A DNA stretch of 64,000 bases from NCBI GenBank assembly GCA_018697205.1, contig JABHTG010000037.1, positions 30,283 through 94,282 on the forward strand. Reading direction: 5' to 3'. This DNA comes from Nitrospina sp. Lineage in GTDB: Bacteria; Nitrospinota; Nitrospinia; Nitrospinales; VA-1. The notes below the pieces were generated by a model that had not been told where the DNA came from, did no database searches, and saw only the letters and a list, made by a program, of their open reading frames with translations. How positions within the stretch are numbered: position 1 is the first letter of the stretch; the number at the start of each line of letters is the position of its first letter. This document shows positions 20,005-43,764 of the stretch, one piece after another. A program made the position numbers and the translations under genes.

Positions 20005-20391
20005 ATGAGTGCACAGCAACTTTTAAATGATTTGTTAGAGCATCTACCATTGAGAGTTTACGGAAGAGGAGCTGTGTTGACCCTGCTTCGTGAAATGGGA
20101 TTTGTGGTGAAAAATAAAACTCCTCTGACAGTGCTTGATGTTTTTCGCGATGATGAGTCAGGGGAATTGGTATGCAAGCTTACTCCTGATGGGACGGGAG
20201 AGTTTACCGCGGCACTATCCAACCTAAAATTAGATATTGTTCATCCTCTCTACAGAAAAGTTAAAGATTATCAAATAGAAGTTTCTGAGGCCCTCGGGAA
20301 ACAGGATGTCGAAGATTCGCGGCAAACACAGATTGAAAGTGAAGATCGCGGTGGGTTACGTGTCAGCGATCTATATAAAAATAAAAAATAG
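20005..20391 (+). CDS. Hypothetical protein
   Basis: 128-aa ORF with no dense competing ORF; family not recognised. Confidence 0.55.
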   Translation: MSAQQLLNDLLEHLPLRVYGRGAVLTLLREMGFVVKNKTPLTVLDVFRDDESGELVCKLTPDGTGEFTAALSNLKLDIVHPLYRKVKDYQIEVSEALGKQDVEDSRQTQIESEDRGGLRVSDLYKNKK

Positions 20392-20445: not shown

Positions 20446-21786
20446 TTACTTTTCAGAGTTAATGAATTTTTTTAGAAAAGGAAACATCGCACCTCGTTTT
20501 TCGATCATCTCTTCACGCGATTTTTTAACAACCGCTTCGTCAATAAGAGCGACATTTCTCTCTTCAGCAAACCTCTCAATTCCTTTAACGACCATCCCTC
20601 GTGCAAATGAAGGTATTCGTTCCAATCGTTCTTTAGCTTCTGGAGTCCATTGAATGTGGAATTCAACTTCTAGGCCAAGAGTATCTTCCACTTTTAGAGT
20701 AATTTCCTTACCGCCATGTTTCCCTGGCTCGTAGTCACATGAAGGGTCCCCAGCCATATAGTTTCCTGTTTCTGCAAAAGCACGAGCACGGCAACCAGAA
20801 CACATCGAAGAGAATTCGCAGGTTCCACATTTCCCTTCTAATTGTTTACGATCCCGTAACTGAATCATCAATGGGGAGTTGTCCCAAAGCTCCTTAAATG
20901 AGGTAGTTTTTAAATTACCAATAGATTCTTCAATAAATGGGCAAGGTGTCATATTTCCTTCAGGTGAAATTCTACTATAATGGGTTCCTGCCGGACAACC
21001 ACCTGAATAAGTACGCGTGTATACAGAATCAGGGTCATTTTCATAAACAACTCGTTTGTATTGGGGGGCGCATTTTGAATTTATCATTAAACGACCCTTG
21101 TATTTCATCTGCTGTTCATAGAGCATTTTGAGAGCTTCTTCGTATGCCTCGTTAGAAATATCGGTATTCCCTTGACCTCGCCCCGTACAAACTAGGAAAT
21201 ATAAATTGAAAGCAATTGCTCCTATCTTTTCTGTAAATGCGACAACATCAGGAATTTCTTTGTAGTTCATGTCTGAGACTGACATCTGAATAAGAAAATC
21301 TACGCCGACCTCATTTAATATTCTGAAGGCTTCCATCGACTGTTCCCAAGCTCCGGAAACACCTCGAAATTTGTTATGTTTCACCGCATCCATAGAATCA
21401 ATACTTATTCCTACTCCATGTGCACCTGCCTCCTTAATTTTTTGAGCGTTAGTTTTGTTGATGAGGGTTCCATTTGTGCCTAAGACGACCATAAATTTTT
21501 TGTCTGCTGCATAACGAATGACTTCATATATATCTGGGCGCAGTAGAGGTTCGCCACCAGTAAGAATAAGAAAAGCATTAGGGTTGACTTCGGCGATTTG
21601 GTCGATTACTCGTTTGCACTCATTTGTGTCTAACTCGTCTGTGCGAAACCCACCACGAAAATCAGCATCAAGGTAGCAGTGATCACAATTTAAGTTACAC
21701 CTTTTGGTAAGATTCCAGGAAATAGAGTATGCTCGAAAATCCATTTTTTCTGGTTTGATTTTAAGTGTGTCTGATGTTGTAGGCAT
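20446..21786 (-). CDS. Radical SAM/SPASM protein (AhbD/NirJ-like) with C-terminal PCP_red domain
   Basis: CNLNCDHCY; LTGGEPLLRPDIYEVIRYA; SPASM-type cysteines GGCPAGTHYSRISPEGNMTPCPF...CGTCEFSSMCSGCRARA; C-terminal WTPEAKERLERIPSFARGMVVKGIERFAEERNVALIDEAVV. Confidence 0.9.
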   Translation of the reverse strand: MPTTSDTLKIKPEKMDFRAYSISWNLTKRCNLNCDHCYLDADFRGGFRTDELDTNECKRVIDQIAEVNPNAFLILTGGEPLLRPDIYEVIRYAADKKFMVVLGTNGTLINKTNAQKIKEAGAHGVGISIDSMDAVKHNKFRGVSGAWEQSMEAFRILNEVGVDFLIQMSVSDMNYKEIPDVVAFTEKIGAIAFNLYFLVCTGRGQGNTDISNEAYEEALKMLYEQQMKYKGRLMINSKCAPQYKRVVYENDPDSVYTRTYSGGCPAGTHYSRISPEGNMTPCPFIEESIGNLKTTSFKELWDNSPLMIQLRDRKQLEGKCGTCEFSSMCSGCRARAFAETGNYMAGDPSCDYEPGKHGGKEITLKVEDTLGLEVEFHIQWTPEAKERLERIPSFARGMVVKGIERFAEERNVALIDEAVVKKSREEMIEKRGAMFPFLKKFINSEK

Positions 21787-22225: not shown

Positions 22226-23074
22226 GTGGGTTTTGAATTGAGAAGATTATTTAGGTTTCCCTTACGGCCAATAAAAAGTATTACATTTGCTAGTCTAATG
22301 CTAGTTTTCCCGGCTTTTATACTGTCCTCTTGTATCAATGCGTATTTTTTTAACGGTCTTCCACTAAAACAAGATAATAAAGGGACCCTCTCAATAACCT
22401 CTGATGATCCTGTATTTGATTTGCTTGAAAAAAAATGGGTTTCTAGCTTTTATTTTGATCGAGGAATGAAATATAAGCGTACTCGACTGAAGGTGGTCTC
22501 TCTTTCTAATTTATTAAAAAGATATAATCTTGATATTAATCTTGATGCAATTCTCCTTAGGTGCGCTGATGATTATGAGGGTATAATCTCAATTAATGAT
22601 GTAAAACACTACGATATTCAAGTTGCGTTGAAAGTTGAATTGGCTGAAGAGGATATTAGACCTGATTGGTTAAAGCCATTGCTAATTGTGGTACCGAATC
22701 ACTCAAAGCCTCCTTTTTCCGAGCGTTTTTTTACAGCTAATATTAATGAATTACGTTTTGTTAGATTAGCGGATTATTATGCTCCGCTTGAGATTTTTGG
22801 GTTGAAAAATATATCCGCAAAATTTGGATTAGATATTTTTAAGAATAACTGTCTATTCTGTCATTCGATAAATAAGGTTGGGGGTAATAAAGGTAGTTCT
22901 TTGGTAAGTGCATTTAACTTAAATTTAGATAGAGAAAAACAAAGATTTAGAGATAGGTTTATAGAAAAACATGGAGCTAGCAATAGCAGTCAAAATATGA
23001 GTCAATTTTTAGTTAAAGGTCAGTTTGACTCCTTATTAGCATTTTTGCGCGAAGTGTCTATAAACAATACTTAA
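22226..23074 (+). CDS. Lipoprotein c-type cytochrome with an N-terminal molybdopterin-oxidoreductase-like region
   Basis: Lipobox-like LSSC; single heme c motif NNCLFCHSINK; upstream VSLSNLLKRYNLD...LLRCADDYEGIISINDVKHY...LKPLLIVVPN resembles the oxidoreductase molybdopterin-binding fold. Confidence 0.65.
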   Translation: MGFELRRLFRFPLRPIKSITFASLMLVFPAFILSSCINAYFFNGLPLKQDNKGTLSITSDDPVFDLLEKKWVSSFYFDRGMKYKRTRLKVVSLSNLLKRYNLDINLDAILLRCADDYEGIISINDVKHYDIQVALKVELAEEDIRPDWLKPLLIVVPNHSKPPFSERFFTANINELRFVRLADYYAPLEIFGLKNISAKFGLDIFKNNCLFCHSINKVGGNKGSSLVSAFNLNLDREKQRFRDRFIEKHGASNSSQNMSQFLVKGQFDSLLAFLREVSINNT

Positions 23075-34631: not shown

Positions 34632-37600
34632 TTGAATCTTCAAGCCAGGTTCTGGATATTAATTTTCTTTTTTTTCTCAGGTGCTACAGGACTTATCTAC
34701 GAAGTTGTGTGGACAAGGCTTTTAACGCGTGTCATGGGGAATACCCATTATTCCATAGCTACAGTCTTGACAATTTTTATGTCAGGTTTAGCTCTGGGTA
34801 GCTATTTAGGCGGGCGCTGGATTGATAGAAGAAAAAATACTCTGTTTTTTTATGCAGTGCTAGAGGGAACTCTTGGTATTTATTGTTTGTTTATCCCGTT
34901 TATTATTGACAGTGCTTTTCCTTTATTTGAGTGGATTTACCAATCTCAAACCGAATCATATACCAACGCAAGTTTGTTTCGATTTTTAATTTGCGGGTCG
35001 ATCCTTCTCATCCCAACCTCCTTGATGGGAGCGACACTCCCCATTTTAAGTAAGTATATATCGCGTAATCCAGCCTTTATAGGTCGAGATGTGGGGAATT
35101 TATATTCATTTAATACTTTCGGCGCAGTTTTTGGGGCTTTATCTAGTGCATTTATATTTATGCGAATATGGGGAATTCTTTATACGATTTGGTTTGCCGC
35201 TGCCTTAAATATTGTGATTGCCATTGCCGTCTACTTTTTATTTTGTAAGGACGAGGACCTGAAGAAAGATGACCTGAAGAAAGATGACCTAGGTCCAACA
35301 AAAAGGTTACCAGAGGTGCCGTCATTACATTCTAATACAGTTTTTATTTTATTGGCATTTGGTTTTTCTGGTTGGTGTGCATTAACATATCAGGTTGCAT
35401 GGAATCGCATATTATCGCTCCTTTTAGGCTCATCCATTTACGCATTCAGCCTTATTCTGACAACTTTTATTCTTGGGCTTGCTTTGGGAACAATGGTGTT
35501 TTCCCATATGGTTAACAAGTTTAAGAATCCACTAGAAGTTTTCGGATTTCTTCAAATGGGAATAGGTATATCGGCTTTGGCTATAATCCCGCTATTCGAA
35601 AAAATTCCTTTTATAAATCGTTGGGTTTATCAAAATTTAAGTATGGAATTTGTAACCATACAGTGGTCCGTTTTTCTAGTAATGTTTTGTTTTTTATTTA
35701 TACCTACATTTTTTATGGGTGGCCAATTCCCTATAGTTATTCGGCTTGTAGTTCTTAAACTAGGTGTAGTAGGGCATTCGATTGGGAAAGTTTACGCTTC
35801 TAATACCATCGGCACTATTGTCGGTTCATTTTTAGCGGGCTTTGTGCTCATCCCATGGATTGGTGTTCAAAACACAATTCTTGTTGCTATAGGGATGAAT
35901 TTATTTATTGGCGCTGCTTTGCTGTTGTTTTCTACTAGTTTTTCTCTAAATAGTAAAATCTACGCATTACCAGCGATTTTAATTCTTTGTTTTTTTTATG
36001 GGCGATCATTAGACGCATGGGATAAATCCATTATCTCAAGTGGTTCTTATATGCCTTATCGTATTGGCGATTTAAGTGAGGCAGAAAAAAAAATAAATAA
36101 AATTTTATTTTTTAAGGAGGGGACACACACAACTGTTACGACTGAACTCTCGGTATCAGGAAATATTTTTTTGCGAGTTAATGGCAAGACTGATGCTTCT
36201 TTAGCTATGGATATGCGAACACAATTACTTTCTGGCTACCTTCCCATGTTCTTACACAATAGACCTGAATCAGTATTGGTTATAGGGCAAGGTAGTGGTA
36301 TTACTCTGGGTGCAGTAGAGCAGTTTTCAATAAAGTCTGTGGACCTTGTTGAAATATCTTCAGCAGTTATTGAGGGGTCCAGGTTTTTTGATTCTTTTAA
36401 TCATAATGCTTTGAATGACCAGAGACTTAAAGTAATTCTTGCTGATGGAAGAAATCACGTGGCTTTGGCAGATAAAAAATATGATGTGATTATTTCTGAG
36501 CCTTCGAATCCTTGGATATCAGGCGTTGGTGCACTATTTACGGATGATTTCTTTAAATTGATGAAAAAACGACTTAATCGAGGTGGAGTGGCTTGTATAT
36601 GGGTTCACACGAATATGAGTCCAATGAGCTTTAAATCAGTTGCGCGCACTTTTTCTGAAAACTTCAATAAGGTAACGATGTGGGAATCGATCGTTGGTGA
36701 TGATTATTTGCTCATTGGATCTGATTCTGAATATAAACTCTCTTATACTGAGATTGATACGCTCTTATCAGATGAGGTTCGCGGTAAGGATCTTTTTAAG
36801 ATAGGCATTTCAAATGTGAGAGACTTAATGAGTTTATTAATTATGAATAGGGAAGGGCTGCTTCGATTTAGCAAGGGAGCACCAATTCATACTGATGATA
36901 ATTCACTTTTAGAGTTTAAGGCTCCTCAGTATATATACAAGGATGAAAGGGATGTTCTTGTTCGTCAGTTAACTCCATTTGTTCAGTTAGATGAGTCGAT
37001 TTTAGACTTTGGTCAATTGAAAGAATCTAAACGCCAAATTGCGTTGAAAGAAATCCAAGCAACAGAGCGATCTGAGAGCCAGATTTCCGAAATAAAGCGC
37101 AGAAACAGAATTGATGGTTTTCTCGGTCAAGCAAAAGAAGCTTATAAATTAGGCGATGCGGATCGGGCAATTGGTATTTATAGGAAAACACTTGAGCAGG
37201 ACCCAGAGAATGTGCTTGCTTGGCTAAATATGGGAAATATTTTAAAGGGTCAGAAACATTTCGAAGCGGCGGAGATTGCCTACCAAAAGACTTTGGAAAT
37301 CAACCCATTTTATCTGTATGGGAATATAGCTTTGGCACAATTATATTTAGCGTCGAATGCTCCTGAGAAAGCTTTGAATATGTTAAGATCTGTTCGTAAA
37401 TGGCATAATTTTGACAGCGAAATTAGCCTTTATATGGGGTTAGTTTTTGCTTTTCAGAAAAACACAGATCTTGCAATAAGAGAATTTCAAAATGCTATCA
37501 GAATAGATCCAGAGTTTGATTTGCCGTATTATTATATGGGAATTCAATACTTCAATTCTCATCCAAATCTTTCAAAAAAAAATCTAAAAAAGTTTTTAAT

Positions 37601-37670
37601 GTTATCGTCTAAAAAATCAGAAAATAAAAATTTAGTTTTCAAAGCTCGGCAGTTGTTGGGAAAAGTTTAG
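34632..37670 (+). CDS. Polytopic membrane protein fused to spermidine-synthase-like methyltransferase fold and C-terminal TPRs
   Basis: Multiple TM (GATGLIYEVVWTRLLTRVMGNTHYSIATVLTIFMSGLALGSYLGG), ADGRNHVALADKKYDVIISEPSNPWISGVGALFTDDFF, C-terminal TPR; TTG start. Confidence 0.87.
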   Translation: MNLQARFWILIFFFFSGATGLIYEVVWTRLLTRVMGNTHYSIATVLTIFMSGLALGSYLGGRWIDRRKNTLFFYAVLEGTLGIYCLFIPFIIDSAFPLFEWIYQSQTESYTNASLFRFLICGSILLIPTSLMGATLPILSKYISRNPAFIGRDVGNLYSFNTFGAVFGALSSAFIFMRIWGILYTIWFAAALNIVIAIAVYFLFCKDEDLKKDDLKKDDLGPTKRLPEVPSLHSNTVFILLAFGFSGWCALTYQVAWNRILSLLLGSSIYAFSLILTTFILGLALGTMVFSHMVNKFKNPLEVFGFLQMGIGISALAIIPLFEKIPFINRWVYQNLSMEFVTIQWSVFLVMFCFLFIPTFFMGGQFPIVIRLVVLKLGVVGHSIGKVYASNTIGTIVGSFLAGFVLIPWIGVQNTILVAIGMNLFIGAALLLFSTSFSLNSKIYALPAILILCFFYGRSLDAWDKSIISSGSYMPYRIGDLSEAEKKINKILFFKEGTHTTVTTELSVSGNIFLRVNGKTDASLAMDMRTQLLSGYLPMFLHNRPESVLVIGQGSGITLGAVEQFSIKSVDLVEISSAVIEGSRFFDSFNHNALNDQRLKVILADGRNHVALADKKYDVIISEPSNPWISGVGALFTDDFFKLMKKRLNRGGVACIWVHTNMSPMSFKSVARTFSENFNKVTMWESIVGDDYLLIGSDSEYKLSYTEIDTLLSDEVRGKDLFKIGISNVRDLMSLLIMNREGLLRFSKGAPIHTDDNSLLEFKAPQYIYKDERDVLVRQLTPFVQLDESILDFGQLKESKRQIALKEIQATERSESQISEIKRRNRIDGFLGQAKEAYKLGDADRAIGIYRKTLEQDPENVLAWLNMGNILKGQKHFEAAEIAYQKTLEINPFYLYGNIALAQLYLASNAPEKALNMLRSVRKWHNFDSEISLYMGLVFAFQKNTDLAIREFQNAIRIDPEFDLPYYYMGIQYFNSHPNLSKKNLKKFLMLSSKKSENKNLVFKARQLLGKV
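35256..35290 (+). repeat. In-frame 15-bp tandem repeat (about 2.3 copies)
   Basis: gacctgaagaaagat gacctgaagaaagat gacct, encoding DLKKDDLKKDDL in a loop between TM blocks. Confidence 0.9.
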
Positions 37671-42798: not shown

Positions 42799-43764
42799 AT
42801 GGCAATCGACAGCAAAGAGCTTGATGATTTTATGCCAGCTACTGAATTAGAGTGGTCTGATACCGCTATTGCGCGTATGAAAAACGTTCCTTTTTTTGTG
42901 AGAAAGAGTGTTGTGCGTGGGATTGAGCAATATGCGAAAGATAAGAGTGTTAGTCTAATTGATGATGATATTGTTTCTCGTGCTCGTCAGGAACGCGAAG
43001 GTGGTGCCATTGAAGAAGCAAGAAAAAAGAAGGCATCTAAAGTTGAGTCTGAAACTGTTGCCCCAGAAGATGAAATCAAACGGCAGTTCGTGAATTTTGC
43101 CTTTTATAAATTAGATCCTTCATTCCGTAGGTTGCCAAAAGAAAGAAAAGAAGCAGCAAAAAAAGAATTCCTTGACGTCCTAGAAGAATACGACTCTAAC
43201 AATGATATGATACTTCTTGGATATACAATGGTGGGTATTAGAGCTGACGTGGATATTATGTTTTGGCGGATAAGTTATGAAATGGAAAACTTTCAAAAAA
43301 TGACCACCCGTATGTATCAAACTGACCTTGGTAGTTTTTTAACACCTAGTTATTCATATTTATCTCAGACTAAACGGTCAATGTATCAAGATATGTTTAA
43401 TCCAGAGCATGAAGAGGATCGAACTCATATAATTCCTGGAAAGGCAAAGTACCTTTTTATTTATCCGTTTGTTAAGACTAGAGAATGGTATCTTCTTACT
43501 CAGTTCACTCGGCAAGGGATAATGGACGAGCATATTTATGTAGGAAATAAGTATCCGTCTGTAAAATTAAATACTAGCTATTCTTTTGGTATTGATGATC
43601 AAGAGTTTGTTGTGGCATTTGAGACTGACTATCCGCAGGATTTTGTAGACTTAGTTATGGATCTAAGAGAGACACAGGGAAGTCTTTATGTTGAGAGAGA
43701 CACACCCATATTTACTTGTGTGGCAAACTCTTTGGAGGATACTATTAGTAGTCTAGGGATATAA
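42799..43764 (+). CDS. N-terminal PCP_red domain fused to chlorite dismutase/HemQ-family domain
   Basis: WSDTAIARMKNVPFFVRKSVVRGIEQYAKDKSVSLIDDDIV (PCP_red-like), then YLFIYPFVKTREWYLLTQFTRQGIMDEHIYVGNKYPSVKLNTSYSFGIDDQEFVVAFETD (Cld family). Confidence 0.87.
   Translation: MAIDSKELDDFMPATELEWSDTAIARMKNVPFFVRKSVVRGIEQYAKDKSVSLIDDDIVSRARQEREGGAIEEARKKKASKVESETVAPEDEIKRQFVNFAFYKLDPSFRRLPKERKEAAKKEFLDVLEEYDSNNDMILLGYTMVGIRADVDIMFWRISYEMENFQKMTTRMYQTDLGSFLTPSYSYLSQTKRSMYQDMFNPEHEEDRTHIIPGKAKYLFIYPFVKTREWYLLTQFTRQGIMDEHIYVGNKYPSVKLNTSYSFGIDDQEFVVAFETDYPQDFVDLVMDLRETQGSLYVERDTPIFTCVANSLEDTISSLGI

Follow-up and report, generated by a model that had tools for sequence, protein, structure and literature searches.

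A radical SAM/SPASM protein with a C-terminal PCP_red domain in Nitrospina, and PCP_red fusions among heme-pathway proteins

Among marine nitrite oxidisers, the Nitrospinota are a major group, and they depend on heme-rich respiration. The PCP_red domain is best known from a chlorophyll-making enzyme. On a stretch of 64,000 nucleotides from a Nitrospina sp. (the window), this domain is carried by a radical SAM protein related to AhbD (heme b synthase, which completes heme synthesis without oxygen) and by a Cld-family protein of the HemQ/ChdC type, which raises the question of what the radical SAM protein is and what the domain does on both. The occurrence of one domain family on both kinds of protein in a single genome, as claimed in the initial annotation, was confirmed by Pfam. 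No paper on a radical SAM-PCP_red or a Cld-PCP_red protein was found in the open-access literature; the only note found there on PCP_red fusions describes Usp-PCP_red in archaea (PMC12159084).

The radical SAM gene and its relation to AhbD

The position of the radical SAM ORF and its Radical_SAM and PCP_red assignments agreed with the ORF list and with Pfam, and all three Pfam domains of the protein exceeded the Pfam cut-offs:

20446..21786 (-), radical SAM/SPASM/PCP_red protein, 446 aa, assigned below to clade A (ORF, Pfam, conservation)
21238..21714 (-), Radical_SAM domain, aa 25-183 (PF04055, 93.8 bits)
20815..20997 (-), SPASM domain, aa 264-324 (PF13186, 37.3 bits)
20521..20649 (-), PCP_red domain, aa 380-422 (PF08369, 44.9 bits)

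The CNLNCDHC motif of the Radical_SAM domain comprises C30, C34 and C37, cysteines that are invariant among 48 relatives, and the auxiliary cysteines (C239, C264, C282, C320, C323, C329, C332 and C350) lie within or around the SPASM domain. W380, A384, P392, F394 and A407 of the PCP_red domain were likewise invariant in the 48 relatives; the last 67 codons do begin at nt 20649 (W380), as had been claimed. The protein is strongly conserved, with identities of 86-96% within most of the family and of 82-85% over the order as a whole, compared to about 69-90% for the Cld fusion. Its closest named relatives come from Nitrospinaceae MAGs (96% identity) and Nitrospina sp., which places the host in the Nitrospinaceae.

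The curated PCP_red cut-off (PF08369, 32.5 bits) was passed by both ORFs, with 44.9 bits for the radical SAM protein and 42.4 bits for the Cld fusion. An earlier hand count of 19 identities in an ungapped match of 48 residues between the C-terminus of the radical SAM protein and the N-terminus of the Cld fusion proved exact; none of 200,000 shuffles reached this number, the best yielding 13. In an AlphaFold model, the PCP_red domain of the radical SAM protein forms a confident three-helix unit (helices 382-388, 393-409 and 417-431), and solved PCP_red relatives include 2l09 and 2kru. The domain owes its name to BchB/ChlB of the dark-operative protochlorophyllide reductase, where it is also C-terminal (solved examples of this type are 2kru, 2xdq and 3aek); unlike BchB/ChlB, the window protein has no nitrogenase-type (Oxidored_nitro) domain according to Pfam, and no photosynthesis is implied.

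The initial description of this protein as AhbD/NirJ-like holds as a statement of similarity, but not of identity. It scored 324 bits with the AhbD model (TIGR04545), 329 bits with NirJ2 (TIGR04055, the best model) and 218 bits with NirJ (TIGR04051), and was thus under all three curated cut-offs (500, 500 and 515.45 bits, respectively). When placed in a tree together with relatives of AhbD and AhbC, it fell outside the AhbD clade and into a separate one, clade A, which is sister to AhbD rather than nested in it (support 96/98). A C-terminal PCP_red domain was present in every clade A member seen, some 80 relatives spread over several phyla (Nitrospinota, Nitrospirota, Myxococcota/Thermodesulfobacteriota-type deltas, Acidobacteriota, Chloroflexota and Planctomycetota). 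The unfused AhbD and AhbC proteins of the comparison set all lack the domain at this position, and within AhbD it is confined to a second clade (clade B, below). NirJ2 and NirJ, of the same radical SAM group and also acting on heme-type tetrapyrroles, differ from clade A in the same two respects, PCP_red and scores.

Clade A and AhbD share the Radical SAM and SPASM domains, the radical SAM CX3CX2C motif and all eight auxiliary cysteines, four of which (C239, C264, C282 and C332) AhbC does not conserve. At five positions, N25/E and Y38/R included, clade A and AhbD each have a fixed but different residue. Score, tree and fixed residues together led us to reject the assignment of clade A to plain AhbD; it is an uncharacterised radical SAM/SPASM family, sister to AhbD, with a fixed C-terminal PCP_red domain. 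Since the SAM-cluster and auxiliary cysteines are common to both, its mechanism is probably AhbD-like.

The PCP_red-Cld fusion and the heme route of the Nitrospinales

The second PCP_red protein of the window combines the domain, here N-terminal, with a Cld-family domain:

42799..43764 (+), PCP_red-Cld (ChdC/HemQ-type) fusion, 321 aa (Pfam; nearest PDB chains)
42853..42987 (+), PCP_red domain, aa 19-63 (PF08369, 42.4 bits)
43150..43722 (+), Chlor_dismutase domain, aa 118-308 (PF06778, 194 bits)

The nearest PDB chains are coproheme decarboxylases, the C. diphtheriae enzyme among them. As in ChdC/HemQ of the actinobacterial type, the catalytic Tyr (Y135) and proximal His (H158) are kept, both in the window copy and in all aligned Nitrospinales copies, and so is the Trp. 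Unlike that type, the fusion has the added PCP_red domain, scores 135 bits with HemQ_actino (cut-off 235) and leaves R208 unmatched: this position, an arginine that holds propionate 2 and is essential in C. diphtheriae ChdC (PMC9953210), is Ser in the window copy, with an Arg/Lys one residue off in most relatives. The distal His (H118) is alignment-dependent, as a His aligns there in the phmmer alignment and none does in MAFFT.

In the coproporphyrin-dependent route, the last step is catalysed by ChdC/HemQ or by AhbD (PMC10548856, PMC7242693). HemH was found in most Nitrospinales, and almost all that were tested had HemY; HemF was absent from all Nitrospinota tested, and HemN gave no match above its cut-off in them, the matches of roughly 200 bits being HemW-like, to judge by their length and score. 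The host genome and most of its high-quality relatives thus have HemY and HemH and lack HemN and HemF, which suggests that the Nitrospinales make heme by the coproporphyrin route with the fused ChdC. The PCP_red-Cld fusion is most likely their main coproheme decarboxylase; we call this probable and no firmer because of the alignment-dependent distal His and the unmatched R208 in the window copy.

A Nitrospirota locus (L199, 6901-12501(+)) holds AhbD, two unknown genes, HemH and HemY in one run, a coproporphyrin heme route ending in AhbD. In three MAG loci (L188, L189 and L190), AhbD directly adjoins a gene whose match to the Cld family (PF06778) is partial.

Separate fusions of one domain

True AhbD proteins with a C-terminal PCP_red domain also exist. 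They form clade B (L050, L064, L065, L179, L181, L182 and L183; 456-489 bits to TIGR04545), which is nested inside AhbD and was found in Nitrospirota and in another family of Nitrospinota. A single origin of both radical SAM fusions, with clades A and B joined, was rejected by an AU test that was chosen after the tree was seen (p-AU 0.0038). PCP_red was thus joined separately to clade A and, in different lineages, to each of the two coproheme decarboxylases known, AhbD and ChdC. The initial proposal of an accessory domain shared by both decarboxylase superfamilies was partly supported: clade B makes it stronger, but the window protein is no AhbD and the fusions form no obligate pair.

Within the Nitrospinota, the two fused decarboxylases are distributed in a complementary manner. 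The Nitrospinales have PCP_red-Cld and almost no AhbD (among those tested, unfused AhbD-type proteins occurred in G023 and G024 only, with a 36% relative in G049), whereas three of the six genomes of family f9 carry AhbD-PCP_red, and this family has no Cld.

Co-occurrence of clade A and the Cld fusion was seen within the Nitrospinales but not beyond them. In 64 Nitrospinales genomes, clade A was present in 52, the Cld fusion in 51 and both in 43; for the 28 with completeness of 90% or more and contamination of 5% or less, the counts were 28, 27 and 27 (phylum-wide and class-wide queries gave the identical 77 genomes). Outside the order the picture changed: 27 of the 43 clade A genomes searched, a set almost entirely from outside Nitrospinales, had no Cld-family match (the 43 include three Nitrospinales, all with Cld). 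PCP_red was missing from the Cld proteins inspected in clade A genomes outside Nitrospinales, and the PCP_red-Cld fusion was found in that order only. The spacing of 21 kb between the two fusions, to which the initial annotation had drawn attention, carries no meaning, because the two genes lie 561 kb apart in one single-contig relative and 255 kb apart in another. Distance and distribution thus rejected a linked pair; clade A and the Cld fusion are two independent users of one module.

The module has other users as well. Family searches of the host assembly (2.48 Mb, 148 contigs, 85% complete) recovered four PCP_red proteins: the radical SAM protein, the Cld fusion, a Zn-ribbon-PCP_red protein, encoded next to a ParA protein of the Mrp/NUBPL type, and a protein that carries PCP_red three times. 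Relatives of the host additionally encode Usp-PCP_red, which has the same C-terminal domain as clade A, with universal stress protein domains in place of radical SAM. As PCP_red is found on Usp, rubredoxin-like, heme-oxygenase-like and Zn-ribbon proteins, the initial idea of a shared tetrapyrrole-binding module was not supported, and tetrapyrrole binding by PCP_red stays putative.

Gene neighbourhoods and the possible roles of clade A and PCP_red

In the window, the radical SAM gene is flanked by two genes on the opposite strand:

22226..23074 (+), c-type cytochrome, divergent neighbour (weak Cytochrom_C match, CxxCH in the translation)
20005..20391 (+), 128-aa protein, convergent neighbour (cluster c353, in many Nitrospinales)

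In most Nitrospinales loci, the cytochrome (cluster c75) is retained next to the radical SAM protein; the 128-aa protein had no Pfam, NCBIfam or PHROG match. The clade A gene lies outside any heme operon in Nitrospinales, where the conserved neighbours are the cytochrome c and unknown or unrelated genes. Across all clade A loci, Usp-PCP_red was the commonest neighbour (17 loci, often directly upstream), and EB_dh-type cytochrome c, bd-like oxidase and small cytochromes c were each near clade A in 6 to 14 loci; these are raw counts, mostly from incomplete MAGs picked for carrying clade A. HemY lies directly upstream of clade A in L114, L118 and L130 (Acidobacteriota and a Pseudomonadota-labelled MAG), and the first of these also has a COX1/COX2/SCO1 run upstream. 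Elsewhere, clade A stands just upstream of ChdC-HemH-HemY (L140, 8941-14419) or between Usp-PCP_red and an adjacent AhbD (L134, 7984-11703). Type II DMSO-reductase-like genes and a bd-like oxidase follow clade A in L142 and L148. The shared theme of these neighbours is heme and respiration; no nir cluster was recognised among the clustered neighbours.

L124, L142 and L148 each have clade A next to a subunit of a bd-like oxidase and to a cluster resembling type II DMSO reductase (nitrite oxidoreductase-like); no NCBIfam model matched the bd-like subunit of L142.

For the chemistry and substrate of clade A, and for the role of PCP_red, we infer the following. Our preferred reading, held tentatively and at somewhat less than even probability, is that clade A is an AhbD-like enzyme acting on a heme-type tetrapyrrole and that PCP_red is a portable docking or handling module on heme-pathway enzymes. 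The radical SAM cluster would generate a 5'-deoxyadenosyl radical, which would attack the tetrapyrrole, probably at a side chain, and the auxiliary Fe-S clusters would presumably have the same cysteine ligands as those of AhbD. The substrate would more likely be heme or a late heme intermediate destined for respiratory cytochromes than coproheme alone, because clade A coexists with ChdC, AhbD and HemN. PCP_red would act as a three-helix unit for docking or cofactor handling. Against this reading count the position of clade A outside heme operons in Nitrospinales, the presence of PCP_red on Usp, rubredoxin-like and Zn-ribbon proteins, for which no link to tetrapyrroles is evident, and the nearest solved folds of the radical SAM part (PqqE and peptide maturases). 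The best reading of clade A is thus an undescribed heme-side-chain radical SAM enzyme; the Nitrospinota carry this uncharacterised AhbD-related enzyme in very well conserved form. PCP_red, by name tied only to chlorophyll synthesis, gains a concrete and testable candidate role in heme handling, because it was fused separately to AhbD, ChdC and clade A.

One alternative, which we consider somewhat unlikely, is that PCP_red has no tie to tetrapyrroles and serves as a general partner-docking module, for instance for a NifH/BchL-like P-loop ATPase (Mrp/NUBPL) or for Usp, through which Fe-S enzymes and stress proteins would receive electrons or Fe-S clusters. The adjacency of Zn-ribbon-PCP_red and the Mrp/NUBPL-type ParA gene in the host points in this direction, as does a single run (L106, 4614-10326(+)) of Usp-PCP_red, Mrp/ParA, Zn-ribbon-PCP_red, a CopD-like gene and clade A, the proteins of which are scattered in Nitrospinota. 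The frequency of Usp fusions beside clade A and their presence in archaea (PMC12159084) are consistent with it, and so is the fact that BchB of DPOR, itself a PCP_red carrier, works with the NifH-like BchL (PMC7242693). However, ChdC carries PCP_red and is no Fe-S enzyme, and separate fusions to three classes of heme-side-chain or tetrapyrrole enzymes would have to be a coincidence.

Another, the chief rival for the enzyme itself though in our view unlikely, is that clade A is an O2-independent coproheme decarboxylase, a functionally equivalent if distant AhbD that backs up ChdC at low oxygen. An aerobic/anaerobic division of this kind is documented in Haloferax volcanii, where the O2-dependent PitA and the O2-independent AhbD occur in one cell and AhbD backs up PitA (PMC5746218), a precedent that also suits the preferred reading. 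The auxiliary cysteine set shared with AhbD and the position of clade A just upstream of ChdC-HemH-HemY in L140 would fit, and in three genomes (G075, G100 and G116) HemY and HemH were found, HemN, HemF, Cld and true AhbD were not, so that no candidate for the last step other than clade A was found there; these surveys covered genomes mostly picked for carrying clade A, and the absences, resting on mostly incomplete MAGs, may be gaps. On the other hand, at least 19 genomes have an AhbD-type protein together with clade A, adjacent to it in L134, and the five fixed differences from AhbD argue against a common function. Four clade A genomes (G084, G088, G099 and G109) have a true HemN, which bypasses coproheme. 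As a general account, in which clade A would supply the missing coproheme decarboxylase in every genome, this view is weakened by the AhbD-type proteins in so many of the same genomes, and we keep it as a rival only.

That clade A is instead a peptide or protein maturase, found near heme genes only by way of a matured respiratory protein, is improbable. In its favour, a fold search recovered only radical SAM cores, the nearest being PqqE, SkfB, SuiB and anSME, which makes a peptide or protein substrate possible; most SPASM proteins mature peptides, and genes for cytochrome c, bd-like oxidase, COX1 and molybdopterin oxidoreductase lie near clade A. Against it, the AhbD and NirJ2 models match the sequence better than any model of a peptide maturase does, and no short precursor-like gene consistently adjoins clade A among the clustered neighbours (ORFs of 90 aa or more).

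An extension of the preferred reading, speculative and distinctly unlikely as a whole, is that PCP_red marks an undescribed heme-handling system, in which Usp-PCP_red, Mrp and Zn-ribbon-PCP_red would form a scaffold with a new class of radical SAM enzymes, which would provide respiratory complexes with a modified heme or load heme for them, the AhbD or ChdC of the host being repeatedly recruited by PCP_red fusion.

Two further observations concern another carrier of the domain and a gene like one that neighbours a carrier. One protein (L066, 2195-3625(-)) joins three PCP_red domains to a rubredoxin-like domain and a heme-oxygenase-like iron enzyme domain (Haem_oxygenas_2/TENA). In the window, 34632-37670(+) encodes a protein of 1012 aa with membrane, spermidine-synthase-like and TPR parts, as judged by eye from the translation, and a gene similar to it adjoins that of the triple-PCP_red protein (L002, 2187-3128).
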